In this document: positions 4,188 to 53,624 of the stretch, piece after piece
Position numbering within the stretch: the first letter of the stretch is position 1
Layout of the letters: the number at the start of each line of letters is the position of its first letter
Translations under genes and position numbers: made by a program
Assembly (NCBI GenBank): GCA_026122225.1
Contig: JANEZZ010001374.1
Location: 186,001-250,000, forward strand
Length of the DNA stretch: 64,000 nt
DNA from: Heloderma charlesbogerti
Lineage: Eukaryota > Chordata > Lepidosauria > Squamata > Helodermatidae
Direction: 5' to 3'
Notes under the pieces: model-generated
Told to the model about the DNA's origin: nothing
The model's input: only the letters and a program-made list of their open reading frames with translations
Database searches by the model: none

Positions 4188-5530
4188 ATTGAGATGCTAA
4201 AATAGCATAAGTCACATCATTGGTGATTTCATGCCCTGCTGTTTCAAATAGACAAATAAAATAAATAGTTATTCCAGAGGAGAAAACCTCACATTTATTT
4301 TCATCCCAGAGTTTTGCATTCATTACTATATTTTCTGGGAGATTTAATCAAGCTGCAAAATTTAGAATAGTGTCATCTTGTTCATCACGAATGCAATCTG
4401 CATAGGTAATTTGCATCGAGTATTTATATAATAGATCTTTGAGATTTATGAATGGAGATAAACTGTTCTACAGAAATGGGCTACTATACTTGTATTTCTT
4501 GCTCTTTGCTATATTCATCTTTGCAGCATTTCCCAAATCTCAGCAATATATTTAAGATTTTTGAGTTGCCTTAGCTGATGACTAAAATGGCTCTAGATAT
4601 ACTCAGTGGTATGCATGAAATAAAGCAATATTACCTTTGTAAATTTCAGCACTTTTTACATTTTATAAAGAAATATTAAACAAGTCCAGGTTACCATGGA
4701 GAGAGGAGGGACAAATGCCAGTTTTTACCCTAAGAACTTGTAGTGTAGCTGTGATTATCTGGATTATATAGGTCTCAGCTGCAAAATAGAAGTGGTGACC
4801 TTCCTGCTGTCACGTTTGACATTTTAATGGTGCTTGCTTTTTCATTTAAAACAACAACAACACAAACTGTCTCTAAATTCTATTCTGGCAATCACGTATG
4901 TCAGCAGAAATATTAAAATATCCTAAATATGAGGAATCATTTGTCATAATCTGGATTTGTTTGGGGCAGGCGGGAGGAAAAGAGATAGGGAAACTGATGA
5001 GGGGGTGATAAGCAATCAGAAAGCTTGTACAGCTGGCTAAAATATAGGCAGTTTTATTTTCCACTTCTGCAACTCAAATGAATGACCCACATTGGCTAGC
5101 AAGCTAGAACATCTTCCATATGGTTTATCTTTCTCATTTTCATTTTGAAAAGATAAAGACTTAGGGGGAACATCATGACAGAGGTTTATAAAAGCAGAGG
5201 AGAGAGTCAGTGAATAAACAAACAAGGACAAACAAAAGGAACTACTACTTACTAAACACATAATTAGCATATAGAATTAATTGCACAATTCTGTGGGTGC
5301 TTCCAAATGAGGCTTTTATCATACAATTTCCCTGCTCATTCACAGAATGTTATGGGGGAACCAGATGTTGTCTTCCACTTCTAACCCTCCTGTGTTTTCC
5401 AACTGTTTCCATCTTTATTCTTTCCATACAAACATCTATTAAGGAGGAATAGCTGCACAATGTCTTCTGATTGGCAGCGGTAGGAGTCCTCAGTGGAAAC
5501 ACCTTATATCATAGATGGCTTCAATAAACA
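4188..5530. other. no recognised feature
   Basis: AT-rich DNA with no supported gene. Around 5,298-5,520 a MITE-like block may exist (it shares its opening with the block at 1,500), but I could not define its ends. Confidence 0.35.
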
Positions 5531-5655
5531 GGGTTGGATCCAGATTAAGTTAGTCATACTTTAGCCCCATTAAAGTTAGTGGGACAAGTTAGCAATGACT
5601 AATGTAACTCACATTGTCTTCAGTGAGTTTTACTTCTAGGTACATGGATATAGCG
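5531..5655. mobile_element. short palindromic MITE-like repeat, GTTGGATCCA end
   Basis: Begins GGTTGGATCCAGATTAAG. Its interior reads CCCATTAAAGTTAGTGGGAC, then, after a short space, GTCTTCAGTGAGTTTTACTTC, i.e. decayed inverted repeats. The same TTGGATCCA end occurs in the MITE at 58,439-58,779. The second end is not clear and no TSD was found. Confidence 0.35.
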
Positions 5656-5780
5656 TAACAGCTAGGGTGGCCATGTGTCCTACTTTAGAGAACAATCCTC
5701 TATCTTGAAGGGCTGTAAGAGTGCAGTCCTTTATTTGAAGGACTGTCCAATCCAAGTCTGATTTAAAGGTAAAGGCAGAA

Positions 5781-7902
5781 GTGCTCAATTCCTACTGTGG
5801 CTCAGTCTTCTCCCAAAAGAGGGTCTATGACCCCCCTGGCAAAGGCGAAGTACAAGCTGAAGGGGCAGGATTGCAGCTTGAGATCGATTGGCATATGGTC
5901 AAGGAACACTTAATTACTTTGAATGAATTCAGATATCCAGGGCCAGCTGAACTGCACCCTAGAATAATAAAGGAATGGGCAGAAGAACTCTCTGAACCAC
6001 TATCTATTATCTTTGAGAAAACATAGAGGATGGGTGACGTGCCAGATGACTGGAGGAGGGCTAATGTTGTCCCTATCTTCAAAAAGGGCAAAAAGGAGGA
6101 ACCTGGGAACTACAGACTAGTCAGTCTGACATCAATCCCTGGGAAAATACTGGAGCAGATGATAAAGCAATCAGTCTGTAAGCACCTTGAAAACAATGCA
6201 GGGATTACTCAAAGCCAACATGGATTTGTCAAGAACAAATCCTGCCAGATGAATCTGATCTCATTTTTTGATCAAGTAACCTCCCTTGGGAATGCTGTGG
6301 ACATAATATACCTCGACCTCAGCAAAGCTTTTGACAAAGTGGCCCATGATATCCTGATGAGCAAACTAGCTCAAAGTGGGCTAGATGAAACAACGATCCG
6401 GTGGATCCACAGTTGGCTACAGAAACAGACTGAAAGAGTGCTTATCAATGGGATCTTCTCAAATTGGGGAGAGGTAACAAGCGGGGTACCACAGGGCTCA
6501 GTCCTGGGCCCAGTGCTCTTCAACATTTTTATTAATGATGGAGAAGGAGGTGCAGGGAATGCTGATCAGATTTGCAGATGACACCAAATTGAGCAGGATA
6601 GCTAATACTTTGGAAGACAGAAACAAAATTCAAAGTGATCTTGATAGACTGGAGTGCTGGGCTGAAAACAACAGAATGAAATTGAATACAGATAAATGCC
6701 AAGTTCTGCACCTAGGAAAAAGAAACCAAATGCACAGTTACAAGATGGGGGATACATGGCTCAACAACACTACAAGTGAGAAGGATCTTGGAATTGTTGT
6801 CGATCACAAGCTGAATATGAGCCAACAATGTGATGTGGCTGCAAAAAAGGCAAATGCTCTTTTGGGCTGCATTAATAGGAGCATTAGGGGTGGATGAAAG
6901 TCACTTACCTGTCCTCGAAGATTTCCCGTGGTGGGGGGGAGGCGCTTCGTTGCTCCCCCCGTGAAGTTCAGGCCGGGGGGGAGGCTTCCCGCCTCGCCCG
7001 GCCGAAATTCAGGCCGGGGAGGAGGCGCCTCGCCTCGCCCGGCCGCGAACTAAACAGTTAAAAAAAAAAACGCCCCCGTGATAGGCTACGTGACGATTAA
7101 CGTAGCCTATCACGGCTAGATCTGCAAAGTCAGCCGTGATAGGCTACGTTAATCGTCACGTAGCCTATCACAGGGGCGTTTTTTTTTTTCTTTTATTGCA
7201 ATGGCGACGGCGGCAGCCAGTCGAAAGATCGGCTGCCGCCCCTGACGAAGACCCGCCGAACCGCCGGCCGGACCCGCCGCCGGGAGGGACATTCGGCAAA
7301 GGTAAGTCCCGTCCCGGGGGGGGTGCGGGGGGCAGGGGGGGTTCGGAGAATTTCTCCCCAAAACTTGTTTGGGGGGCTGAACACGTTGGCACTCGGCCCC
7401 CCGAAGTTTCGGGGAGAAATTCTCCGCCATCCCTAAGGAGCATAGCTTCCAAATCCCGGGAAGTACTAGTTCCCCTCTACTCAGCACTGGTTAGGCCTCA
7501 TCTGGAGTACTGTGTCCAGTTCTGGGCACCGCAATTGAAGAAGGATGCAAACAAGCTGGAAAAGGTTCAGAAGAGGGCAACCAAGATGATCAGGGGACTG
7601 GAAACAAAGCCCTATGAAGAGAAACTGAAAGAACTGGGCATGTTTAGCCCTGAGAAGAGAAGACAGAGGGGAGATAGGATAGCGCTCTTCATGTACTTGA
7701 AAGGTTGTCACAGAGAGGAAAGCCAGGATCTCTTCTTGATCATCCCAGAATGCAGGACATGGAATAATGGGCTCAAGTTCCAGGAAGCCAGATTCCGGCT
7801 GAACTTCAGGAAAAACCTCCTGACTATTAGAGCAATAAGACAATGGAACCAGTTGCCTGGGGAGGTGGTGGGCTCTCCCACACTGGAGGCATTCAAGATT
7901 AT
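5781..7902 (+). pseudogene. CR1 ORF2 (reverse transcriptase) pseudogene
   Basis: ORF2 of CR1 copies element RNA at the target site in the nucleus. Recognisable in order: a linker (PPGKGEVQAEGAGLQ), a stop near 6,024, then RT palm and fingers with [17 protein letters not shown], the motif-A block [32 protein letters not shown], and in another frame FADDTKLS with the catalytic Asp pair. A deletion after FIND shifts the frame. After the inserted element comes [15 protein letters not shown] with [12 protein letters not shown] stop, a frameshift and an insertion make it non-functional. The long frame 7,136-7,930 is a chimera of insert and CR1, not a gene. Confidence 0.88.
6885..7435 (+). mobile_element. 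palindromic hAT-like non-autonomous element, copy 1 (551 bp)
   Basis: Flanked by a perfect 8-bp duplication AGGAGCAT (6,877-6,884 and 7,436-7,443). Ends are TAGGGGTGG and, inverted, TAGGGATGG. The left (E1) arm is GC-rich with a reverse-strand GGTAAGTGAC donor-like site (6,903-6,908). The centre keeps just two GTGATAGGCTACGT hairpins around the spacer GGCTAGATCTGCAAAGTCAG. The right (E2) arm holds ATGGCGACGGCGGCAGCC at 7,201, an outward GGTAAGTCCC at 7,301, and a terminal hairpin. In this copy a TGA at 7,243 interrupts the frame. The rest of the palindromic core is deleted. It is inserted in CR1. Confidence 0.9.
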
Positions 7903-9602
7903 TATTTCTGGATCTAGACATGTAAATTAGTGTATGCAAATTTTATGCAAAACTACACCGTCTTTTGTCTGTTTGGTGATGCATTTCCTCTTTTTTGGAG
8001 ATTCTTAAGTAGGAATGGACAAATCTGTCAGTTTTGCTTTCTCCCACATTTGCTTCTTTTTAATTTCTAGTTCTTTTGGTCCCATTTATGAAGAAATTTG
8101 CAAATTTGGGGAAGTTTTCACTAAAAAAAAAAAAACAAGCAAAATTCTCACCCATCCCTTTTCATATGTGACCACCCTAACTGCAGCCTTACTGGACCCA
8201 ACCTGCAGATTTAAAGAAACAAAAGATAGATTTATCTGTGGCTATTAGGCATCCTTTTGTTGCAAGTGTTAAACGGAGGTACATTGCTCCTGAGCAAAGA
8301 GGTTATGACTCTGAGCTGGAGGTTCAAATTTAGCTAAAAGACTGTTTCTTGAGATATTCCAGAGGCATATGGCTGGCCACTGTGGAGAAAGGCTGTGAGA
8401 ACAGATGGGCCTTTGCTTGTTCCTGCACAATAATATGAGTGTTTTTAATCATTAGAAAACCTAACACTCTTATTTTTCCAATACCCATACCCAACCCTAT
8501 ATTCCTAAATACAGTTTTCAATGTACTGAGAAGTGATGTGAACTTGCACTATGAAAAAAGCATAGGAAACATGCCAGTGATATAATTTCTTTCTGCTTTT
8601 CAGGCAGATGCAAATGTAGTTTCTCTTCTCTGGCTTTTTCAGATTCTGCACTTTCCATCCAGCTTCCATCCCTATTCAGCAACCGGGGGGGGGGGGATTG
8701 TTGCTTTTCCTTGCTTGCATGCTTGCCTATGTCCAGTATGGACTGTTCTCTCCCTAAGGAATGAATTGAAGGTAGGTCTTTAAGTGTTACTCATGTTTAA
8801 CGTGGGATGACAAGAACTGTGGATGAATTTTGTAAAAAAGGAAAATCTGTATGAAAAAGCTTTTGTGTTGCTTTTTAGCAGTTGTACATCATGTTACTTG
8901 CAAAAACAAAAAAACAAAACTGAGAATTATGTAGGATGTGAACAAAATAAATATTAGATAAATTATCTAATCTTGCCTAATCTCTTAGAAGGAGAGATTT
9001 TGTAGTATGCAAAAGATTCTGTTTCTATGTAATCATGCTTGTTAAATGTGTACGCTGATGCTTAATACCAGCATTTCTTTTTAGATCTGTCACCCATACA
9101 AGTGATGCTAGCATGTTCCATGAACCTAAAAGACTAGCCTGAACCATCCATGAAGAGATGAGCTGTTAAACAAGTGCATTTAGAGTCCAAATGTATGAGT
9201 TAAATGACCTAGTTTGCTATCTTGCTCAGCATCCACCCAACCCCTTGGCTTTAGTAGTCTCCTTTTGTGGGTTTTCCCTCTGACCGCTAGCTTTAATGTA
9301 TCTCTAGTGATGGAACTGGCACTTTGTCCTTAGTAAAAGTAATTGAGTGCTGTTGCCTCTTCTATTTCTGCCTCCAGCCAACAGGGTTTCTGGTTTTCGT
9401 GACAGTAAACCACTTAGTTTTAAAATGCTGCTGTTAAATGCCAAGACAGTGAATGGTAAGACCTCTTTAATCCAGGATTTGATCTTTGATGAGCATGTTG
9501 ACCTGGCATGAAAACTTGGTAGGAAGAGGAGGATGGAGTTAATCTGTCTCAGCTATGCACACCAGGTTTTCAGGCACAGCAGACACATGATTTGGTGGGC
9601 AG
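7903..9602. other. unassigned; possible small hAT MITE near 8,010-8,160
   Basis: No gene. Bases about 8,010-8,160 begin TAGGAATGGACAAATC and end ATTCTCACCCATCCC, compatible with a small TAGGGATG-type hAT MITE, but no matching duplication was found. A run of G lies at about 8,684-8,697. The remainder is featureless to me. Confidence 0.35.
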
Positions 9603-11725: not shown

Positions 11726-11920
11726 GAAACATAGGAAGCTGCCTTATGCTGAGTCAGACCCTGGGTCCATCTAGCCCAGTACTGTCGACACTGACTGGCA
11801 GCAGCAGCTTTCCAGGGTTTCAGGCAGGATTCTTTCCTAGCCCTACCTGCAGATGCTGGGGATTGAACCCAGGACCTTATGCATGCTAAGCATGTGCCCT
11901 GCCACTGAGCTACAGCCCTT
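11726..11920 (-). mobile_element. tRNA-derived SINE (type B)
   Basis: Minus strand begins AGGGCTGTAGCTCAGTGGCA (tRNA-like A box), followed by a B-box-like GGGTTCAATCCCC. The body is GGGCTAGGAAAGAATCCTGC, then CTGGGCTAGATGGACCCAGG, and it ends GCATAAGGCAGCTTCCTATG. Near-complete. Other copies lie at 22,181-22,480 (interrupted) and 56,199-56,378. Confidence 0.85.
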
Positions 11921-13092: not shown

Positions 13093-13521
13093 TTTCGCGT
13101 TCCTTATTTGGTCGCTGTAGTCTACGTAAAGATTTACGTAGACTACAGCGAGCAAATAAGGAACGCGAATGGCGCTCCCTATGGGGGCCACCATTAGCGT
13201 ACGCGCTTTTTTTTTTTTTAAGTCACCCGTGATAGGCTACGTGACGATTAACGTAGCCTATCACGGCTGACTTTGCAGATCTAGCCGTGATAGGCTACGT
13301 TAATCGTCACGTAGCCTATCACAGGGGCGTTTTTGTTTTGTTTTTTAACTTTCGAGTTCGCGGCCGGGCGAGGCGGGAAGCCTCTTCCCCGGCCTGAATT
13401 TCGGCCAGGCGAGGTGGGAAGCCTTCCCCCCAGCCTGAACTTCGCGGGGGGAGCAGCGAAGCGCCTCCCCCCCACTGCGAACAAGCTTCGACGAAAGGTA
13501 AATGACTTTCGTCCACCCCTA
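13093..13521 (+). mobile_element. palindromic hAT-like element, copy 2, left arm missing
   Basis: Begins abruptly in the core (GCGTTCCTTATTTGGTCGCT) and runs through hairpins of GTAGTCTACGTAAA, ATGGCGCTCCC.., and two GTGATAGGCTACGTGACG units, then an intact E1 arm ending CACCCCTA at 13,521. The E1 donor is altered here: AAAGGTAAATGAC instead of GGTAAGT. No left terminus and no duplication; the missing end coincides with missing L2 sequence, so a deletion removed both. The insertion lies inside L2, which lies inside the hAT-like element. Confidence 0.82.
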
Positions 13522-22480: not shown

Positions 22481-24334
22481 TAAGGAGTGTTGTATCTGGA
22501 CAGGCAGACATCTGCTTCCTTTCATGTGTTTGAGTTACTACATTTTTAAAAAACATGCTCTCAAAATGCTGCAAGGATAAATAAGTGAAAAGGCTCCCAG
22601 ATCTCCTTTCACTTTTGTACAAGATTTGCAACCTCTTTTTTTTTTTACACAGAGGTAACCTTTCGTAAAATAAATAATAGTAGGGGAAATAAAGGTCCTT
22701 TGTCTTTTTTCTTTTTTTGGTTATCAACACAGTTTTTATTTTTATAATCATAGTTATTTTTGCTTTGGGGTTGCTATGCTATCCTAGATCTATTTGCGTC
22801 ATTTGTGCTTCTCTAAACTCTCTGACAAAAAGGAATAGAGCGTTCATCTGTGCTTGAAAATCTAGTAAAATCGTTGTGCACTTAAAGCAATGATTAAAGA
22901 AAGCTAGATTAAAGGACATAGAGACCCTGTGAACCCTGTTTTGGTGTTCTGTATGCCTCTGACCTATAAAACCATTGTAGGCCTATCTTTTTTTCCCCTC
23001 AAATATGCCGCAAGTCAGCCCAAAATAATTATCAAGCATTTGGGGGTGGTTTTGCCTCTAGTCTAATCTGCTCAGCCAGAGAACAGGCAACAGCACATCA
23101 TGAAACAGGCAGTCAGGAGTGTTGACCTGTCTCTATGCCAGCCTTCCTCCATGTGAGTCCCTCCAGATGCACTTAACTATTTAATTATCAGAGGCACCGT
23201 AAGTCTCCAGTACTTTCTCATCACAAGGAGACTGACCCTGTGAAAGGCTGTCCCCTGGAACTTCCTACCCCTTTCAGGAAGAGGTGAGTAAAAAAGCAAT
23301 AATGATTCAATCAGCGCTGGCTGTGAAGGTTTATTAATAGAATTTTGCAGATAATCTTCACCTGAGATGATACAAGAAGACTGAAAATCTTGAAACAGTA
23401 CTGCAGTGGGTTAATAATGAATGAGTGTCTTGCAAGGCAAGAGCACTTGGGAGGAATGTCAAATCAAATAAAGGTTTTGCACAACAGCATCTAGGAAGAG
23501 CAATATCTAATCCACACACAAGAGCAGATGAGTCGGACCTAAGAAATTAGAGATTTCAAACACCATTATATGAGGACACAGATGCTGAGAACAGAAAGAG
23601 GCTGTCTGAGGATACAGGATATATTTTACACCGGCAACAATGTTCTGGTGTAAAACATTGTAATATATTGCAGGAAGAGAATGGCCACAAAAAAGATTTA
23701 ATTTGGATTTTTTGGAAGTATTTATTTAAAAAATTCTTAGCTGCCTTTCAGGGCAGAAGCCCTCCCAAGGCAGCTCACAGCAATAAAATACATAAATTAA
23801 TATGTAATAAACATATTAACATGTATTTTCCTGAGTCATCTCTTAGAAGCTATTGCAACAGCAGGGATTAGAAATTAACAGAAGAATAACTATGTAAAAT
23901 AACTGAATTAGCAACTTTCATGTTGTGTACTACAATAAAATGGCCACATATTTAAAGAGGACTCTGTAGCTTTCTTGAAAATACCAGGAAAGCTGAACAT
24001 AACGTTGTTCAAATATAAAAAGTTTTGCATGCATACATCATTCCAGGCAACATGGATAAAAGAAGTCAATGAAAACCAATTAACTACAGACTGATTAAAA
24101 GGCATTTTCCCCCACAAGAGAACGATAAAGTCTAGTAGCCATTCAGTAAATCGTAAGTGCATCTATCAACCATCCACTGCAAGCTAAGCAAATAGAAACT
24201 AATGTTTTACTGTCTTACTATTATTATCATATTTTTTGTAATCCTACTCTGTTCTGTTTGGTTGTTTATTTGTGGCACTTTATTGAAATGTGTTTCACTT
24301 GAAAGGATACTTTTCAAACTGGTTCACACATGGA
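22481..24334. other. mostly unassigned; LINE tail at about 23,715-23,800
   Basis: No gene. Bases 23,715-23,800 (TATTTATTTAAAAAATTC, GGGCAGAAGCCCTCCCAAGG) look like an inverted LINE/SINE 3' tail. The interval 22,500-23,700 shows nothing I recognise. Confidence 0.35.
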
Positions 24335-25198
24335 TAGGGATGTACGAAAGTCACGTAACTTTTCGAAGGGTGACATTCGTGGGGGGGGAGGCGCTCCGTC
24401 CCTCCCCCCCGAAATCCTGACCAGCCGGCTCCGCTCCGCAGGGATTCTGCGGAGCCGCCAGCTGGCTAGCAGGGACACAAATGTCGGCGGCTGTAGCCGC
24501 CGCCGCCGTTTGAGTCCCTGCAGTCAGCCATGATAGGCTACGTGATAGGCTATCACGGCTGATTTAAAAGGGAAAAAAACACGCATATGCAAATGGCGGC
24601 GCCCATGGGCGCCGCCATTTGCATTACTTATTTTAGCACGTCTTAGTCTACGTAAACATTTACGTAGACTAAGACGGCGAAAATAAGGGAAACGCAAATA
24701 GCGCAGTGTCTACGCTATTTGCGTTCCCCTTATTTTCGTCGTCTTAGTCTACGTAAATGTTTACGTAGACTAAGACGTGCCAAAATAAGGAACGCAAATG
24801 GCGGCGCCCATGGGCACCGCCATTTGTGTACGCATGTTTTTTTTTCTTCTTTTAAATCAGCCGTGATAGGCTACGTAAACATTTACATAGCCTATCACGG
24901 TGTTTTTTAAAAATCTAGCCGTGATAGGCTACGTAAATCTTTACGTAGCCTATCACGTTCTTTTGTTGTTGTTTTTTAACTGGAAATGGCGGCAGCGGTG
25001 GCCGGTCGGAAGACTGGCTGCTGCAGCCGCCGCCGCCGCACCGCCACCGGAGCCGCTGCCGCCAGGAAGATCCGCCCAAGGTAAGTCCCGTCCCGGGGGG
25101 GGCGGGGGGGCAGACTGTTCCACCACTGATTTTGGGGGGCCTAATGCGCTGGCATTCGGCCTCCCCGAGATTCGTGGCGGAATTCTCTGACATCCCTA
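24335..25198 (+). mobile_element. palindromic hAT-like element, copy 3 (864 bp)
   Basis: Perfect 8-bp TSD CACATGGA (24,327-24,334 and 25,199-25,206). Ends TAGGGATG in both directions. The core is a nested palindrome: paired GTGATAGGCTACGTAAAC/ATTTAC hairpins, CAAATGGCGGCGCCCATGGG palindromes, and central GTCTACGTAAA hairpins. The left (E1-type) arm is GC-rich but its donor is degenerate. The right (E2) arm has GGAAATGGCGGCAGC at 24,986, stays open for 31 codons plus 2 nt, and meets AAG|GTAAGT at 25,081. Hairpin loop sequences differ from other copies but remain paired. Confidence 0.9.
24986..25080 (+). other. putative outward-spliced coding exon (E2 exon), copy 3
   Basis: Opens with ATG in good context (A at -3, G at +4), overlapping an ATGGCGGC YY1-like core. 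It codes MAAAVAGRKTGCC followed by an Arg/Ala-rich stretch and is open to CCCAAG|GTAAGT at 25,081. The donor points out of the element across its terminus 117 bp away. Related exons occur at 39,056-38,950, 40,122-40,022 and 44,602-44,507. Protein homology unknown to me; transcription not shown. Confidence 0.4.
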
Positions 25199-27111
25199 CA
25201 CATGGATTGTCATCCCTAAATGGTTGCAGCTTCAAGATGTATAATAAATTTGCATATGTGAGTGACTCAGCACAGTCCAGTGCCCCATAGAGGACTTGCA
25301 TATCTCCTTCTGTCCTCTTAAACATAATGACTGAGTTCACACAACACGACAACCCATACTCAGGGGTGTGTATGGGTTGAATGTGGGTTGTCGTACCATT
25401 GATTGTTGTGTTGTATGAACCTAGACATGCTAACAAACCATGGTTTTTTAACTATAATCAACGCAAAAGAAAACCCATAGTTTGTTATTGGGTTGTGAAC
25501 TGTGGTTGTTCATGGTCAACGAACTAGTTTGTTAGCGCAGCTGGGTCCACACAACACAACAACCCATGGTTCAGTGACAACATGTCTACGCAAACATAAG
25601 CCTCATTAAGTTCAATGGTAGTGTGTATAGGACTGGTGCCTCAGCTACAGTTTTCTCTGGTCTGACTCCACTAACCTCACCTCACTCCTGAAGTCAACTT
25701 GCTTGGAGAAACTCTGGCCTAATCAGTATTCATGGCCATACTTGTTAACAATGTTAACAAAAGAGTACAATGAATAGAAATTGAAGGCTTCCCTTCTGTA
25801 TAAAATTGCTTTTCTGTTATCTTTAGAAGCGTGTGTGTGTGTGTGTGTGCGCGCGCGCTTGCATGCACATTTAAATAGACCCTGTTTATCTCACAGGACT
25901 TTTGTTACAAAAGAGAAGATTTAGAACGAGAATTAATTACATTAATGATGCTGTTTGAATGTTAATACTTCAGTGTCTTTCAGATCACACTTTATATCCT
26001 TTGATAAAGCATGCTCTGAAGAATTAACATTTTTATCTTCCTAAGCTTCCCAGTGCAATCAAACTACCGTATTTTAGTGGCTGAAAAGCATCTTTAATAA
26101 GTTATACTAAATCAGGAAATGCGCTCCGGTGTTATGCTGTTTTTTTGCATGTAACTCGGCTTACCTGAGCTTATCCATGCTGTCTTGTAGCTTTTTAAAT
26201 GTTAAAGTAGGTTTCTTTATTCCCTTTGGCAGAATGATTTAGCTCATATGCAGCAGACATTGTTGAATACATGTTTATTTATGTTTATCTACATTTTGTT
26301 CTTCCATGCAGCAAACTATTAATCTTCTAAGGAGATGGCCTTTTTTTCTTGTCCTACACCAGCTGCAGTTCTTATAGATAAGCTGGCAGTATACAAAAAA
26401 ATGTAAACCTCATGCATCATCTCCACATTCTTGCTTGTCTGTGGTTCTACCTCCATAGATATAATAATGTACAGTATGCCCTGAAAACATTTTTTTAAGG
26501 CTATGGCTCACTTCTTTTTGAAAGGTGTTAGCTCCAATCATTCGGTTGTCTTTTTGTAGAGGTGCTCCGTTGAAATCATTGGGAAAGCTGTAAGTTGGAA
26601 ACTGCTGCCTTCTCTTCCAGGTTTTCAAAGTTGCTATTTCTTGTACCTGTGACAGCTGTTTCTGGATGGTGGTACTTCTTCAGTAATGTCCTGGGCTAAG
26701 AGTACATGACACATCCTTCTTTGTTATAACTCTAATTATACAGCTGTATTAAAGTAGATGTGATCAAACAGCATTTTACCATTTTAATGCCTAGAATTCT
26801 AATCATTTTAAAATCAAGATAATTTCTCCCAACTCTCTGAACTTTGGTGTGCCTTATCTACCACATAAATAACATAAGCTGTCCACATCTTAGGGGAAAA
26901 AATCAATTAAGAAATGGGTGACCTACAGCAGTTCAGAAATTTCACCTTGAACTGCAAATTCTTCCTGTTGCAACCATTCTGTGCACCAATAACATACTTC
27001 CATTTTTCCTTTCGCTGATTTAGATCTCTCTCAAAAATTCAAGGAAATCCCAGGGATCTGGTTCTACCTGACTTGATGAAAATCCAACGTATAATAATAA
27101 AAATATGTGTT
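25199..27111. other. unassigned; ACAAC-rich inverted-repeat MITE traces
   Basis: No gene. At 25,330-25,580 repeated phrases such as CACACAACACGACAACCCAT and TGGGTTGTCGTACC occur in both orientations, suggesting a MITE-like family also seen at 27,800-27,870. A (GT)n(GC)n microsatellite lies at about 25,832-25,858. The remainder is AT-rich and unremarkable. Confidence 0.4.
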
Positions 27112-34455: not shown

Positions 34456-35700
34456 TAGGGATGGCAGGGAATTCCACCACAGACTCTAATGAGACTGGAT
34501 TCTTTAGAATCCAGCCCCCCGGAGTCCATGGCAGAACGGAGCACTCCCCTCCACCACCCCACAAAATTCTCCCCAGATGGACTCTACTGTCGTCGGCTGG
34601 TCCAGTCCATCTGCTGCCGTCTGCTGCCCCAGTCTGCGGCTGCAAATGGTGTCCAGCATAGTGGACGCCATTTGCGTCCCTGGTTTAGCCGTGATAGGCT
34701 ATGTAAATCTTTACATAGCCTATCATGGCAAAGAACAGGGATGCAAATGGCATCCGCTACGCCATTTGTGTCAGGGTGGAAACTGAGCCCAGAGAGCCTC
34801 AGAGCAGTTCGGATTCTGAGGAGGAACAGCTATCCATGGGAGAGGGGCCAGCTCATCCTTCACAGGCTCAGCACCTGGCAGAGATTCCTCCTGCCAGCAT
34901 TCCAGAGAAAGAGAGCACCCCAGGTAGTGAGGCAATGTGGGAGGGGGGCTTCTTAGATGCTCGACGCAGATGCAAAGAGCGATGAGCAATGGAGGGCATG
35001 GAAAGGAGGTGTAGCGCCTGTTTGGTGCGCAAGCAACGGCCGCCTCCCATGGACCCAATGGAAAGAGGGAGGATCTCTCCCTAGCCCATAAGTTCTGGGT
35101 CTTCAAGTGACTCTCTTTCAAACGGGGATCAACTGACTACTTGAAACTTAGGCTACCCTGTTCCTTGCTTTAGTCACTGGTGATTAGCATCTGAAAGAGT
35201 CATTAAGTTGTAAAAGGATTAAAGCTTTGAAAAGAAATCCTTTCATCTGTGTCTTGAGTCGGCTATTGGAATCTACTGGGAGAAGCTGCCAGAGCGCTCC
35301 TGACAATTTGCGTAGCTACTCTTTTTGTGAATTTGCGTCTCTGCTTTAGCCGTGATAGGCTACGTAAATATTTACGTAGCCTATCACAGCTAAACCAGGG
35401 ACACAAATGGCGTAGCAGATGCCGTTTGCATCCCTGCTCTTTACAGTGATAGGCTACGTAAATATTTACATAGCATATCACGGCTAAAGCAGGGATGCAA
35501 ATGGCGTCTGCTATGCTCAACGCCATTTGCAGCCACAGACCGGGAGCGGACGGAAGTCCGGCTGTGGACGGGCCCAGCCAGTGGCTCTGCGGACTTGCCG
35601 CGGAGTGGAGCTGGCCAGGGAGGATTCTGGGGGGAGGGAAGGATCACCCCCCCCCGGGAAGCCCCAGACCAGAACGGTAAGTGGATTTCATACACCCCTA
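34456..35700 (+). mobile_element. palindromic hAT-like element, copy 4, split by a solo LTR
   Basis: Perfect 8-bp TSD GTTGCAAT (34,448-34,455 and 35,701-35,708). Ends TAGGGATGG and CACCCCTA. Without the LTR it is about 703 bp. The core has GTGATAGGCTACGTAAATAT hairpins separated by ACGCCATTTGCGTCCCTG segments. It belongs to a subfamily: the left (E3) arm has a different hairpin (GACTGGATTC / GAATCCAGCC) than the E2 arms. The right arm ends AACGGTAAGTGGATTTC with an outward donor at 35,677. The LTR sits in a palindromic ATTTG of the core. Confidence 0.88.
34769..35305 (+). mobile_element. solo LTR (537 bp) with 5-bp TSD
   Basis: Starts TGTCAGGGTGG and ends CTCCTGACA (TG...CA ends), flanked by the 5-bp duplication ATTTG (34,764-34,768 and 35,306-35,310). 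A polyadenylation-like AGGATTAAAGC followed by TGTGTCTTGAG lies near the 3' part. No internal viral sequence accompanies it, so it reflects LTR-LTR recombination. A related LTR fragment is at 15,360-15,800. The superfamily (ERV or other LTR element) is not decided. The frames of 86-155 codons on it are not viral genes. Confidence 0.82.
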
Positions 35701-38821: not shown

Positions 38822-39748
38822 TAGGGATGGCGGAGAATTTCTCCCCGAAACTTCGGGGGGCCGAGCGCCAACGTGTTCGGCCCCCCGAACAAGTTTCGGG
38901 GAGAAATCCTCCGCGCCCCCCGCACCCCCCCCCCCGGGACGGGACTTACCTTCCCTGAATGTCCCTCCCGGCGGCGGGTCCGGCTGGCGGTTCGTCGGGT
39001 GTTCGAGCGGGGCGGGAGCGGCAGCCGGTCTTTCGACCGGCTGCCGCCCCCGCCATTGCAATAAAAGAAAAAAAAAAGTCCCCTGATAGGCTACGTGACG
39101 ATTCACGTAGCCTATCACGGCTAGATCTGCAAAGTCAGCCGTGATAGGCTACGTGAATCGTCACGTAGCCAATCACGGGTGACTTAAAAAAAAAAAAAAA
39201 AGTGTGTACGGATAATGGCGGCCCCCATAGGGAGCCGCCATTCCCGTTCCTTATTTGGTCGCTGTAGTCTACGTAAATGTTTACGTAGACTACGGCGAAA
39301 ATAAGGGCAACGCTATTTGCGTTGCCCTTATTTTCGCCGTAGTCTACGTAAACATTTACGTAGACTACAGCAACTAAATAAGGAACACGAATGGCGGCTC
39401 CCTATGGGGGCTGCCATTCGCATACGTGCTTTTTTTTTTTTTTAAGTCACCTGTGATAGGCTACGTGACGATTCACATAGCCTATCACGGCTGACTTTGC
39501 AGATCTAGCCGTGATAGGCTACGTGAATCATCACGTAGCCTATCAGGGGGCGTGTTTTTTTTGTTTGTTTTTTTAACTTTCGCGTTCGCGGCCGGGTGAG
39601 GTGGCAAGCCTCCTCCCCGGCCTGAATTTCGGCCGGGCGAGGCGGGAAGCCTCCCCCCCGGCCTGAACTTCGCGGGGGGAGCAGCGAAGCGCTCCCCCCC
39701 ACCGTGAACAAGCTGCGAGAAAAGGTAAGTGACTTTCGTCCACCCCTA
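38822..39748 (+). mobile_element. palindromic hAT-like element, copy 5 (927 bp), most complete core
   Basis: Perfect 8-bp TSD CTACTGAG (38,814-38,821 and 39,749-39,756). Left E2 arm: TAGGGATGG, a terminal hairpin (TTTCTCCCCGAAAC / GTTTCGGGGAGAAA), an inverted GGTAAGTCCC at 38,944, and an ATG at 39,056 (minus). The core spans about 39,060-39,565, a near-500-bp palindrome holding two GTGATAGGCTACGTGA hairpins per arm, an AATGGCGGCCCCCAT hairpin per arm, a CCTTATTTGG box, GTAGTCTACGTAAA hairpins and a central AACGCTATTTGCGTT. Right E1 arm: 41-42-bp GC-rich repeats, then AAAAGGTAAGTGACTTTCG, then CACCCCTA. Confidence 0.92.
38950..39056 (-). other. putative outward-spliced coding exon (E2 exon), copy 5
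   Basis: Minus strand ATG at 39,056 in good context (G at -3, G at +4). It encodes MAGAAAGRKTGCRSR, then a Pro/Ala/Arg-rich stretch, and is open for 35 codons plus 2 nt to GGGAAG|GTAAGT. It shares AGRKTGC with copies 3 and 6 and the same phase (length 2 modulo 3). The donor faces the left terminus 128 bp away. Expression not shown. Confidence 0.4.
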
Positions 39749-39901: not shown

Positions 39902-40679
39902 TAGGGATGGGGGAGAATTTCTCCCCGAAACTTCAGGGGACCGAGTGCCAACGCATTCGGTCCTCCGAAGGTTCGGGGATAAATTCTCCACCCCCCCGCC
40001 CCCCCCCGGGATGGGACATACCTTTCACAAATGTCGCTCCCGGCGGCGGATCCCGGCGGCGGTTCGGCAGGTCTTCGGCAGGGGCGGCAGCCGGTCTTTC
40101 GACCAGCTGCCACCGCCGCCATTACAAGAAAAGTTAAAAAAAAAAAACGCCCCTGTGATAGGCTACGTAACGATTAACGTAGCCTATCACGGCTAGATTT
40201 GCAAAGTCAGCCGTGATAGGCTACGTTAATCGTCACGTAGCCTATCATGGGTGACTTTAAAAAAAAAAAAAAGCGCGTACGCTAATGGTGGCCCCCATAG
40301 GGAGCCGCCATTCGCGTTCCTTATTTGGTCCCTGTAGTCTACGTAAAGATTTACGTAGACTACGGCGAAAATAAGGGCAACGCAAATAGCGTTCCCTTAT
40401 TTTCGCCATAGTCTACGTAAATCGTTACGTAGCCTATCGCGGGGCATTTTTTTTTTTTTTACTTTTCTTTTGAAGTTCGCGGCCGGGGAGACGGGGCACT
40501 TCTCCCCGGCCTGAATTTCGGCCGGGCGAGGCGGGAAGCCTCCCCCCCGGCCTTAATTTCGGCCGGGCGAGGTAGGAAGCCTCCCCCTCCGGCCTGAACT
40601 TCGGGGGGAGAAGCAAAGCGCCTTCCCCCCACTGCGAAGCAAGCTGCGAGACCAGGTAAGTGACTTTCGTACATCCCTA
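39902..40679 (+). mobile_element. palindromic hAT-like element, copy 6 (778 bp)
   Basis: Perfect 8-bp TSD CTGATGGG (39,894-39,901 and 40,680-40,687). Left E2 arm with terminal hairpin and inverted GGTATGTCCC (40,016). The core's left half is complete. The right half jumps from a GTAGTCTACGTAAAT hairpin to CGTTACGTAGCCTATC, consistent with deletion between two hairpins sharing TACGTA. Right E1 arm has three 41-42-bp GC-rich units and CCAGGTAAGTGACTTTCG, ending CATCCCTA. Only 145 bp separate the TSDs of copies 5 and 6 (137 bp between TSD inner limits). Confidence 0.92.
40022..40122 (-). other. putative outward-spliced coding exon (E2 exon), copy 6
   Basis: Minus strand ATG at 40,122 (G at -3, G at +4) within ATGGCGGCGGTGGC. 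It encodes MAAVAAGRKTGCRPC and is open for 33 codons plus 2 nt to GAAAG|GTATGT. Donor slightly weaker than GTAAGT. Same phase as copies 3 and 5. Confidence 0.4.
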
Positions 40680-44384: not shown

Positions 44385-45341
44385 TAGGGATGGCGGAGAA
44401 TTTCTCCCCAAATCTTCAGGAGGCCGAGTGCTGACGCATTCGGCCCCCCGAAAGTGTTGGGGAAATTCTCCGCCGGTCCCCCGCCCCCCCCCGGGATGGG
44501 ACTTACCGTGGCCGAATATCCCTCTCGGCGGCAGGTCCCGGCGGCAGTTCGGCGGGGGCAGGGGCGGCAGCCAGTCTCCCGACTGGCTGCCGCCACCGCC
44601 ATTACAAAATAAAAAAGTAAAAAAAACCACACACACACAGCTATGATAGGCTACATGACGATTTACGTAGCCTATCACGGCTAGATTTCCAAAGTCAGCC
44701 GTGATAGGCTACGTAAATCATCATGTAGCCTATCACGGGTGACTTTGGAGAGAAAAAAAAAGCACGTATGCAAATGGCGGCGGCCCATGGGCGCCGCCAT
44801 TTGCGTTCCTTATTTTGGCATGTCTAGTCTATGTAAAGATTTACGTAGACTATGGCGAAAATTCGGGCAACGCAAATAGCATGCCCTTATTTTCGCCGTA
44901 GTCTACATAACTCTTTACGTAGACTAGACGTGCCAAAATAAGGAACGCAAATGGCGGCGCCCATGGGCCGCCGCCATTTGCGTACGCGCTTTTTTTTTTT
45001 CCAAAGTCGCCCGTGATAGGCTACGTGACGATTTACGTAGCCTATCACGTCTGACTTTGGAAATCTAGCCGTGATAGGCTACGTTAATCGTTACGTAGCC
45101 TATCACGGGGTTTTGTGTTTTTTTTCACTTTTTCCTTCGCGGCTGGGGAGATGGGGCGCTTCTCCCTGGCCTGAATTTCGGCCGGGCGAGGCGGGGCACC
45201 TCCCCCCCCGGCCTGAATTTCGGCCGGGCGAGGCAAGGCGCCTCCCCCCCCTCGCCTGAACTTTGGGGGGAGAAGTGAAGCGCCTCCCCCCCACCGCGAA
45301 GCAAGCTGCGGGACAAGGTAAGTCCCTTTCGTCCATCCCTA
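44385..45341 (+). mobile_element. palindromic hAT-like element, copy 7 (957 bp)
   Basis: Perfect 8-bp TSD CTCAGATG (44,377-44,384 and 45,342-45,349). Left E2 arm: TAGGGATGG, terminal hairpin, inverted GGTAAGTCCC (44,501), ATG at 44,602 (minus). Core: paired GATAGGCTACATGACG and GTGATAGGCTACGTAAAT hairpins, CAAATGGCGGCGGCCCATGG palindromes, GTCTACGTAAA hairpins, mirrored on the right. Right E1 arm: repeated GGCCTGAATTTCGGCCGGGC units, AAGGTAAGTCCCTTTCG, CATCCCTA. The longest complete copy here. Confidence 0.92.
44507..44602 (-). other. putative outward-spliced coding exon (E2 exon), copy 7
   Basis: Minus strand ATG at 44,602 (G at -3, G at +4) encodes MAVAAASRETGCRPC and is open for 32 codons to GCCACG|GTAAGT. 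The length is 0 modulo 3, unlike copies 3, 5 and 6, so the phase is not fully conserved. The frame also extends upstream without an ATG-free barrier. Confidence 0.38.
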
Positions 45342-47352: not shown

Positions 47353-48997
47353 CAGTCAGGGCCAGAAATATCGGAACATGGATAACTGTTTTGGCAGTTG
47401 GCCTCTGTACACCACCACATTGAGGTTGAAAGGAAACACACCCAGATGGGAGTGAAGTCAGGACTTTCAGCTGTAATTCAAGGGGTGTGACACAAGTGGG
47501 CCACTAACCATTCAGGAAGTACAGCCAGTGGCATACACACACACCCATCGTTGTTGGCTCATAAGTAATGGAACAAACCAACATCATTTCAAACTTAAGG
47601 ATCGCCTTTAATACCTGGATGAAAATCCTTTGCAGTCAATGACTGACTGAAGTCTGGAACCCATGGACATGACCCAATGCTGAGTTTCCTCCCTCGAGAT
47701 GCTTTGCCAGGCCTTTACTGCAGCTGCCTTCAGCTGCTGCTTGTTTGTGGGTCTTTCTGCCTTCAGTCTTGTCTTCAGTAAGTGAAAAGCATGCTCTATT
47801 GGGTTGAGATCAGGTGACTGACTTGGCCATTGAAGAACATCCCACTTCTTTGCCTTCAGAAACTCTTGGGTAGCTTTTGCTGTATATTTTGGGTCATTAT
47901 CCACCTGCAGTATGAAGCGGCATCCTATCAGTTTGGCAGCATTTGGCTGAATCTGAGCAGAAAGTAGAGCCCTATACACTTCAGAATTCATCCTGCTGCT
48001 TTTATCAGCAGTCAGGTCATCAATAAACACCAATGACCCAGTTCCATTGGCAGCCATACATGCCCATGCCATAACACTGCCTCCACCATGTTCGACAGAT
48101 GATGTGGTCTGCTTTGGATCATGAGCTGTTCCTTTCCTTCTCCATACTTTTCTCCTCCCATCATTCTGGTACAAGTTAATCTTGGTTTCATCAGTCCAAA
48201 CAATCTTATTCCAGAACTGGGCAGGCTTTTTTAGGTGTTTGCTGGCAAAGACTAATCTGGCCTTTCTGTTCTTGAGTGTTACCAGTGGTTTGCACCTTGT
48301 TGTGAAGCCTCTGTATTTACATTCATAAAGCCATCTCCTGACTGTAGATGTTGACAATGACATGCCTCCCTCCGCAAGAGCGTCCTTGACCTGCCTAGAA
48401 GTTGTGAAAGGGTTCCTCTTCACCATGAGCAGAATTCTGTGGTCATCCACTTTAGTTGTCTTCCGTGGTCTTCCAGGCCTTTTGCGGTTGCTGAGCTTGC
48501 CAGTTAATTCCTTTTTTTCAGGATGTTCCAGACTGTTGTATTGGCCACTCCCAATGTCTTTTCTATCTCTCTGATGGATTTATTTTGTTTCCTCAGCCTA
48601 ATGATGTCCTCCTTCACTTGCATGGACACTTCTTTGGACCTCATGTTGGGAGTTCCAGTGAACAGCTACCAAATGCAAATGTAGCACTCAGAACCACCTC
48701 CAGGCCTTTTATCTGCTTGATTGGTCATGGGGTACCCAGGAAACATGCCACACCTGGCCATGCAGCTGCTTGTCAGCCATTCATTCCATTACTTATGAGC
48801 CACCAACGATGGGGATGTGTGTATGCCACTGGCTGTACTTCCTGGTTAATGCCCCACTTTTGTCAAGCCCCTTGAATTACAGCTGAAAGTCCTGACTTCG
48901 CTCCCATCTGGGGGTGTTTCCTTTCAATTTCAATGTGGTGTACAGAGGCCAAATGCCAAAACAGTTATCCTTGTTCTGATATTTCTGGCCCTGACTG
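47353..48997 (-). mobile_element. Tc1-type transposon (1,645 bp), nearly intact
   Basis: Duplicated TA at 47,351-47,352 and 48,998-48,999. Terminal inverted repeats start CAGTCAGGGCCAGAAATATC on both sides and extend about 210 bp with few differences (both contain GTCAGGACTTTCAGCTGTAA and CCAGTGGCATACACAC), the long-repeat layout typical of many vertebrate Tc1 elements. It carries one transposase frame on the minus strand with a single apparent frameshift. It is inserted in a CR1-like LINE. Confidence 0.95.
47608..48644 (-). pseudogene. Tc1 transposase, one frameshift
   Basis: Cut-and-paste transposase. Reading starts at the ATG at 48,644 (MRSKEVSMQVKEDIIRLRKQ), a helix-turn-helix region (SIREIEKTLGVANTTVWNIL), then an A-run near 48,510 where one base appears missing, so the frame changes. 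The remaining 280 codons from 48,450 contain VKRNPFTTSRQVKDAL, the first catalytic Asp in WTDETKINLY, the GGGSVMAWACM box, the second Asp in LQVDNDPKYTAK, and the Glu in SPDLNPIEHAF. The catalytic triad is present and total length (about 345 codons) is normal for the family. Inactive as read unless the A-run is a sequencing error. Confidence 0.93.
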
Positions 48998-52309: not shown

Positions 52310-52650
52310 AGGGTTGGGCAATATCGGGAGATCTGGGGGTCATTTTCAGCCAAATGGGCTACAGTCTGCCAGACAAACTGAAAAAAAAAAAGTTTTTTTT
52401 TTTTTAATGAAAAATGGTGTCTGGGGCACTATGGAATACCTTACCTTGCCGCCCACGGGAGGTCCGCCGGGGGGGGAGGTGATCTGTTCCTCCCGCCTGG
52501 AATCCTTGCCAGCCGGCTCCGCAGCGATTCCGTGGAGCCACCAGCCGGTTGCGAAGCCCCAGTGATATGGCTGCCATTGCCGTACTGCTGGCTGGACTGA
52601 CAAACTATGGACGCAAATGGCTCAGATCACCTACCTGTATTTTTTTTTTT
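52310..52650 (-). mobile_element. palindromic-family fragment (isolated arm)
   Basis: Minus strand: CCATTTGCGTCCATAGTTTG, TCAGTCCAGCCAGCAGTACG, GCAATGGCAGCC, a hairpin (GGCTCCACGGAATCGCTGCG), then GGGCGGCAAGGTAAGGTATT with a donor-like site. It parallels 53,415-53,540 in inverse orientation and the left arm of copy 3 (CAGCCGGCTCCGC). No terminus or TSD. At 52,625 it is joined to GATCACCTACCTG, which belongs elsewhere in the family. Confidence 0.6.
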
Positions 52651-53304
52651 TTTTAATCACATTGAATTGTGTAATCTTCAAGCAAATCTGCTCACTGGTA
52701 CATAATATCTAGATATCTCCAGATATCTGCTATGTGGTATTTAAGTGCTCTTGGACACTACCAAACATTGCACAAGACTGACAAGGTCAATGATTGGCCA
52801 TTTATAAACTAATGCCAAGGAGTGTAATCACCACAAGTTCCAATAACCAGGAGCAAAGCATATGATATAAAGCTGCACAAATGTCCAGCGAATATATACA
52901 GAATGTCTGTACACACATTATGTGAGGGTTGCTTATATAGGGCAAATTAATTTAGCAGGATCTCAAGGAACTTTGCATCAGTATATACTCCTTTACAGAA
53001 GCAGTTATGCTTAGCACAAAGTAGTTGTGGAAGCGAACCTTTGCCTGCTTTACAGAGAAAAGTATTCAGGTTTTAGTGCCCATGTTGTTGTCATCCCATG
53101 AACAGCCAGCTCAAGACCTTCTGCTGCCTGAGGCAAAGGACAAGATGCCCCCCTTCCATTCCACCTACAACAACTAAATGGACTGGCAGTTGAATCTTTC
53201 TTCAACACTGGCAATGGGACTGTATCTTCCACCACACCTGAAGGCAGTAGGATAGTTTAGGGGCGCAGGACAGGCTGCACAGCCCACAGTTCTCTCCTCT
53301 AGCA
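52651..53304. other. no recognised feature
   Basis: Unassigned DNA between the two palindromic-family fragments. Could be an insertion into a once continuous element, but I see no ends or duplication. Confidence 0.35.
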
Positions 53305-53624
53305 GTTTGTATTTGGGTCCCTGTTCCTTCGCGTGATAGGCTACATAAAGATTTATGTAGCCTATCATGTCAAAGAGCAGGGACGCAAATGGCGTCAGTT
53401 ACGCCAGACGCCATTTGCGTCCACAGTTTCTCAGTCCAGCCAGCGATACGGCAATGGAGGCCGTATTGCTGGGGCTTCAGAGCCGGCAGCAGGCAGGATC
53501 TGCCGGCGAGGACCCCACAAGGGAGGCAGAGGTAGGTGATCCGATCCTCCACGGACTTCGGGGGGCCAGATTCAATAGAATCCGGCCTCATTGGGGTCCG
53601 TGGAGGATTTCTCCGACATCCCTA
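53305..53624 (+). mobile_element. palindromic hAT-like element, copy 8, left part missing
   Basis: Starts inside the core (TTTGGGTCCCTGTTCC). One GTGATAGGCTACATAAAG / ATTTATGTAGCCTATCA hairpin with flanking mirrored GTCCCTG and CAGGGAC. Then a GACGCCATTTGCGTCC palindrome, GGCAATGGAGGCCGTATTGC, GGCAGAGGTAGGTGATCC (weaker donor), and an E3-type terminal arm (CTCCACGGACTTCGGGGGGC) ending CATCCCTA at 53,624. The E3 arm matches copy 4's left end. No TSD because the left end is lost. Confidence 0.8.

Follow-up and report, generated by a model that had tools for sequence, protein, structure and literature searches.

Outward-facing splice-donor-like motifs near both ends of a non-coding, hAT-like transposable element in Heloderma charlesbogerti

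A 64-kb stretch of the genome of Heloderma charlesbogerti (contig JANEZZ010001374.1, positions 186,001 to 250,000; hereafter the window) contains several copies of a high-copy, non-autonomous transposable element that resembles miniature inverted-repeat transposable elements (MITEs). The element is hAT-like, an assignment that rests on the length of its target site duplication and on its short terminal inverted repeats, TAGGGRTG...CAYCCCTA, which we take to be of the hAT type. Near each of its two ends, designated E1 and E2, it carries a near-consensus U1/5' splice-site motif that faces out of the element: all seven (A or C)AG/GTAAGT sites of the window (the slash marks the predicted splice boundary) sit in element ends and all point outward. 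The E2 motif of the copy at 24335 had been noticed in the original prediction, which saw in the preceding ATG-initiated frame either a possible first coding exon that splices into host exons or a fossil first exon from a captured host gene. In family A of these elements the interval between the ATG and the donor is non-coding; it may still serve as an outward exon that ends in a predicted donor. The features of the copy concerned are the following.

24335..25198, + strand: complete family A element holding the finding, with the 8-bp duplication CACATGGA at 24327-24334 and 25199-25206
24986..25080, + strand: 'exon' of the original prediction, from the ATG to the last base before the GT, judged non-coding
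24988..25031, + strand: stretch aligned to the 20-bp stem-loop with its four-base loop (GGAA in this copy, GAAA in the copies at 6885, 38822 and 39902)
25078..25086, + strand: E2 outward donor motif AAG/GTAAGT

The E2 arm is composed of a T-rich leader, a AATGGCGGC block that supplies one side of a stem-loop rich in G+C, a middle part that changes fast, and the donor motif facing the tip. Six complete elements of the window are flanked by an 8-bp target site duplication with 0 mismatches (6885-7435, 24335-25198, 34456-35700, 38822-39748, 39902-40679 and 44385-45341); copies are named here by their first position. The description given in the original prediction holds for the window. In copies 24335, 38822, 39902 and 44385 a frame that starts with ATGGCG (ATG at 24986, 39056, 40122 and 44602) stays open over 95, 107, 101 and 96 nt, respectively, up to GGTAAGT or GGTATGT, and the terminus follows 118, 128, 120 and 122 bp after the GT. 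Three of the four frames, with lengths of 2 mod 3, are in one phase, and the 6885 copy (ATG at 7201, 101 nt from ATG to GT, 134 bp from GT to terminus) contains a stop. The donor reads GTAAGT in all five copies but 39902, where it is GTATGT. The earlier reader did not note that the opposite end has an outward donor too, that the interval contains a stem-loop, or that the 39902-type lineage has a stop in frame.

The genome-wide search covered the 2.302-Gb assembly of 3,246 contigs. Arm queries each yielded 4,263 to 6,787 first-look candidates, apart from one with 142, and the whole element yielded 15,636; family A is present in thousands of copies. The best matches to four window copies, together with neighbours in those loci, provided a sample of 124 distinct E2 arms that is not a random draw. 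Identical arms were merged, and arms were kept only if the match started no later than base 40 and came within 15 bases of the end of the reference. For 65 of the 124 arms a left end was found by the 8-bp duplication, in which up to one mismatch was allowed; the duplication was perfect in 56 and had one mismatch in nine.

Among 50 non-CpG 9-mers of the 124 arms, GGTAAGTCC ranks first, with an exact retention of 0.82, compared with 0.79 for GAAATTCTC and 0.66 for the terminal CCATCCCTA, which bears out the earlier proposal that GTAAGT is more conserved than its surroundings. At the E1 end, AGGTAAG is the best kept of 43 non-CpG 7-mers; the site reads AAGGTAAGT or CAGGTAAGT in the outward direction at a median of 24 bp from the tip, and the E2 donor of family A lies 117-134 bp from its tip. 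When 62 of the 65 complete family A elements, those shorter than 1,100 bp, were scored for matches of at least 7/9 to the U1 site, 61 had such a match facing outward at E2 and 60 at E1, whereas 0 and 1, respectively, had one facing inward in the same intervals. Between 0 and 2.5% of shuffled sequences, depending on the group, reached this match. GGTAAGT occurs outward at E2 in 59 and at E1 in 50 of the 65 complete elements, and elsewhere only five times. The 24335 copy has no good E1 site. In several copies (L146, L147 and L149) the donor is shortened to AAG/TCCC, which fits a deletion between the two AAG repeats of AAGGTAAGT.

Since the elements are young (non-CpG C/G transitions amount to 0.6-3.1% by segment within groups), retention inside a subfamily says little, and the argument is carried by comparisons between lineages and between families, which are few in number. 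The majority sequences of four subfamilies are 12-22% apart. Their longest identical runs are AATGGCGGCGGCGGCAGCC, with 19 bp, and TCCCGGGGGG and GGTAAGTCCC, with 10 bp each; the 19-bp run includes the ATG, and the block is one side of the stem-loop. The other copies in the window and their sites are as follows.

38822..39748, - strand: complete family A element; E2 donor at 38944-38952 (-), E1 outward donor at 39722-39730 (+)
38950..39056, - strand: E2 ATG-to-donor stretch of the 38822 copy, 107 nt, with a perfect or near-perfect 20-bp stem-loop
39902..40679, - strand: complete family A element; E2 donor AAG/GTATGT at 40016-40024 (-), E1 outward CAG/GTAAGT at 40653-40661 (+)
44385..45341, - strand: complete family A element; E2 donor ACG/GTAAGT at 44501-44509 (-), E1 outward donor at 45315-45323 (+)
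6885..7435, + strand: family A element, short but complete, its frame interrupted by a stop; E2 donor at 7299-7307 (+), E1 outward CAG/GTAAGT at 6903-6911 (-)
13094..13521, - strand: family A copy without an E2 arm; E1 site decayed (GGTAAATG)
34456..35700, - strand: family B element with a perfect 8-bp duplication; E1 outward ACG/GTAAGT at 35674-35682 (+), no E2 donor found by eye
52469..53624, + strand: older family B copy; E2 outward GAG/GTAGGT at 53529-53537

Family B, represented by 21 arms of which nine have a left end with a matching duplication, is related to family A and repeats its plan with other sequence. It keeps AAG/GTAAGG at E1, where nine of nine complete elements match the U1 site in at least 7/9 positions, and GAG/GTAGG at E2, with GTAGG in 20 of 20 sites. 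These motifs sit in flanks unlike those of family A. The E1 site is located 22-24 bp from the tip in both families, the E2 site of family B about 93 bp from its tip. In the small sample of lineages available, positions -3, +4 and +6 vary and G-1, G+1, T+2, A+3 and G+5 hardly do. This is the pattern in which 5' splice sites vary.

We tentatively favour, at somewhat less than even confidence, the interpretation of the E2 motif as an outward U1/5' splice site that ends a non-coding outward exon. RNA polymerase II transcripts that exit the element would bind U1 at the donor. They might then be spliced, as a short non-coding exon, to acceptors of the host, or bound U1 might sustain transcription beyond the tip. 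A conserved start block followed by a donor about 100 nt downstream would be the layout expected of a short non-coding first exon, or of a U1 site that lies close to a promoter and promotes elongation. The AATGGCGGC start block presumably resembles a YY1 site; YY1 sites are known at vertebrate promoters and start codons and can lie at the transcription start.

Several observations weigh against this interpretation. In the three groups suited to a CpG-decay test, each with at least eight members, CpG in the ATG-to-donor stretch decays 6.4-11 times faster than other C/G sites, compared with 3.0-14 in the rest of the element. Because the decay is like that of the rest of the element, inserted copies look germ-line methylated, unlike active promoters. 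An active germ-line promoter betrayed by slow CpG decay is thus unsupported, the decay lying within the element's overall range. No spliced retrocopy was seen in the 14 places read out of 31 in which the exon end is not followed by GT; all 14 continue into the element's own tail, and the other 17 were seen as matched letters only. The E2 site of family B is weak, only two of nine complete elements reaching 7/9, and the 44385-type E2 site has a C at -2 in 13 of 17 cases, contrary to the consensus. Finally, an inverted pair of motifs is also the expected appearance of a transposase site. The source sequences of family A have a CpG observed/expected ratio of 0.87-1.63, versus 0.21 in the rest of the window.

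It is the methylated appearance of the copies and the lack of a spliced retrocopy that keep the U1/splice-site interpretation below even odds and leave a second one nearly as likely, namely that GGTAAGT is a subterminal recognition motif of a hAT transposase, present as an inverted pair, that resembles a splice donor by chance. Single copies close to the two ends, inverted with respect to each other, the constant position of the E1 site in both families and a retention in the E2 arm that matches or exceeds that of the terminal repeat (0.82 versus 0.66 for CCATCCCTA) all agree with a transposase motif. The placement of the E2 site, so unlike that of E1 in either family, does not, nor does the between-lineage variation, which fits a 5' splice site as far as the small sample goes. 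Furthermore, ten stretches of some 0.4-1 kb that follow hAT dimerisation domains all lacked AGGTAAG, although these stretches are not tied to family A. They come from a search for an autonomous partner that gave 150 scored dimerisation-domain matches among 871 first-look candidates; of the ten whose downstream ends were read, none could be linked to family A. CATCCCTA occurs in six of the ten stretches but, being followed by the same letters, is taken as internal. At least seven of the dimerisation-domain loci carry 879-codon open frames with near-equal scores, which suggests that an autonomous hAT family was active recently in this genome.

In an extended form of the U1/splice-site interpretation, the matched outward pair evolved and was kept by selection on active lineages, so that the element constitutes a two-way non-coding exon trap without a reading frame. 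This stronger proposal we consider doubtful, with a markedly smaller chance than the E2 reading by itself. If it is true, transcripts leaving the element in either direction would be spliced into, or elongated through, the host neighbourhood wherever the element lands. Splice sites contributed by transposons are well known and for the most part accidental; in two diverged families with near-perfect donors facing out at either end, the sites would instead look selected for. The outward donors, being very many, young and alike, also allow a clean test, as routine RNA-seq of the animal would show whether they are used.

Much less probable than either of the two leading interpretations is a cassette exon, in which the T-run and the first AG after it (GGCAG/CC, about 20 nt on) would form an acceptor and intronic copies would be included as an exon of about 80-90 nt. 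The T-run is indeed followed by GGCGGCAG/CC as the first AG in all four subfamily majority arms. However, it mirrors an A-run across the central fold-back, so that no splicing function is needed to account for it; the majority arm of family B lacks such a T-run, and none of the 14 places read showed a retrocopy junction.

Still less credit is due to the first idea of the original prediction, a coding first exon that traps host exons, and for family A a protein-coding exon is largely refuted by a frame no more open than chance, the rates at the codon positions, the shifts of phase and the stop of the 39902 type. The ATG itself is well conserved, as had been supposed: it is retained in 117 of 124 arms, an exact retention of 0.944 that 18 of 139 non-CpG 3-mers equal or surpass, and the start block is identical in the four subfamily majority sequences. 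The frame that it opens is not. Both ATG and GT are present in 110 arms. Of these, 73 are open in the ATG frame (79.7 would be expected from shuffles), and 105 and 78 are open in the next two frames; the stops number 40 in the ATG frame and 5 and 37 in the others. Substitutions per site at codon positions 1, 2 and 3 amount to 0.134, 0.112 and 0.103, so the third position is not faster, and in the window copies the ratio of non-synonymous to synonymous polymorphism (pN/pS) is 0.83, versus a mean of 0.88 for permuted columns, with 6, 5 and 6 variable columns by codon position. The synonymous bias that a coding exon would display did not appear. Insertions and deletions distribute the 110 copies over all three phases (85, 18 and 7). 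The majority sequence of the 39902-type lineage has an in-frame TGA, and only four of its 24 members are open (20 closed), compared with 24/31, 18/22, 27/28 and 0/1 in the other types, as counted in the 106 of 124 arms that passed the filters. Nor does the openness seen in the window call for selection: dinucleotide shuffles gave a probability of 0.56 that at least four of five copies are open. The near stop-free condition of the sense frames (1, 0 and 1 stops across the five copies) and antisense frames (1, 0 and 0) is due to a G+C content of 70-76%. A small result that favours coding comes from family B, in which the ATG frame is open more often than the other two (17 of 19 arms, versus 11 and 15) and 15 of 19 arms share one phase. 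Of the exon-1 trap originally proposed, the outward donor motif, kept beyond its surroundings, and the conserved start block stand; the coding exon does not.

The peptide common to the window copies is a read-out of a stem-loop of 20 bp, in which the ATG side and the TGC side are joined by a four-base loop. For the 'exons' of the five window copies the folding energies range from -27.8 to -37.7 kcal/mol, with z values of -2.4 to -4.6; in the 24335 copy the minimum-energy fold joins the ATG side to a more distal stretch instead. In a covariation analysis of the 20-bp stem, 93.0% of the cells were paired, versus 91.8% after shuffling, a value as high being reached in 133 of 500 shuffles. As the pattern of changes is no stronger than under shuffling, selection on pairing is unsupported; the palindrome itself is plain. 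Least probable of all is that the stretch is what remains of the promoter and first exon of a host gene captured by the element: the presumably YY1-like AATGGCGGC and a donor about 100 nt downstream would suit this reading, but the conserved half is a stem-loop, palindromic like the rest of the element, a twin donor lies at the other end, and family B has the same plan in other sequence.

The element is palindromic well beyond the E2 arm. The whole 38822 copy folds at -703 kcal/mol, compared with a mean of -340 kcal/mol in 20 shuffles (z -40), and in the 62 complete elements a median of 0.82 of the bases is paired, the longest stem having a median of 214 bp and a range of 38-399 bp. The centre forms one long nested fold-back, with a 231-bp stem in 38822-39748. 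Between subfamilies, both arms of the fold-back share changes beyond what chance divergence would suggest. Inside subfamilies, homogenisation of the central fold-back within single copies was not seen: within-copy versus between-copy similarity was 0.912 versus 0.924 in the 38822 type, 0.870 versus 0.896 in the 44385 type and level (0.911 versus 0.910) in the four copies of the 24335 type.

The window is eukaryotic DNA with reading frames that we take to be related to long interspersed nuclear elements (LINEs), Tc1 and BovB, and a search of viral contigs gave 0 matches. The 6885 copy is inserted in a LINE-like frame (6027-7930) with the duplication AGGAGCAT. A 323-codon frame without a stop at 47608-48579 (-) presumably belongs to a Tc1/mariner-like transposase. 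The sole Rfam match in the window, to tRNA at 11848-11916 (-), is at a guess the head of a tRNA-derived short interspersed nuclear element. At one locus of the genome (L140), the end of one element is followed after a few bases by a second element end, as if by side-by-side insertion of two copies.

With non-autonomous hAT MITEs that have a fold-back, the present element shares its non-coding character, the short terminal inverted repeats, the 8-bp duplications and the high copy number; it differs from the known ones in the length of its central stem (median 214 bp) and in having an outward donor near either end. A search of the open literature, which did not extend to subscription journals and repeat databases, turned up no hAT family that carries outward donors as a pair; the accessible part of a study of SAFB and intronic transposons mentions no outward-donor hAT (PMC10901741). 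Maize Ds and Ds1 of the Ac/Ds system are also hAT elements with 8-bp duplications. According to the accessible part of PMC5432752, the donors of Ds1 lie 12, 22 or 33 bp from the terminus, and Ds has splice sites in both orientations, with donors favoured. The element described here is likewise hAT-like, with 8-bp duplications and predicted donors near both termini (about 24 bp at E1 and 117-134 bp at E2 in family A). Its donors face out, whereas those of Ds, in our reading of the same part of PMC5432752, face inward, a direction in which 0 and 1 of 62 elements here reach 7/9. Also unlike Ds, the E2 donor lies more than 90 bp inside.

The nearest analogue in outcome may be the bat Helitrons, DNA transposons that reportedly carry promoters and first exons from a captured piece of a host gene. 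In both cases a DNA transposon could start host transcripts with a first exon and a donor of its own. Helitrons belong to another superfamily, however, and the stretch at issue here is not a captured gene piece but part of the element's palindrome, with a twin at the other end. Engineered poly(A) traps combine a promoter or exon with an outward splice donor, and the plan of the present element resembles that of such gene and promoter traps. Unlike them, the putative trap described here is natural, non-coding and directed both ways.
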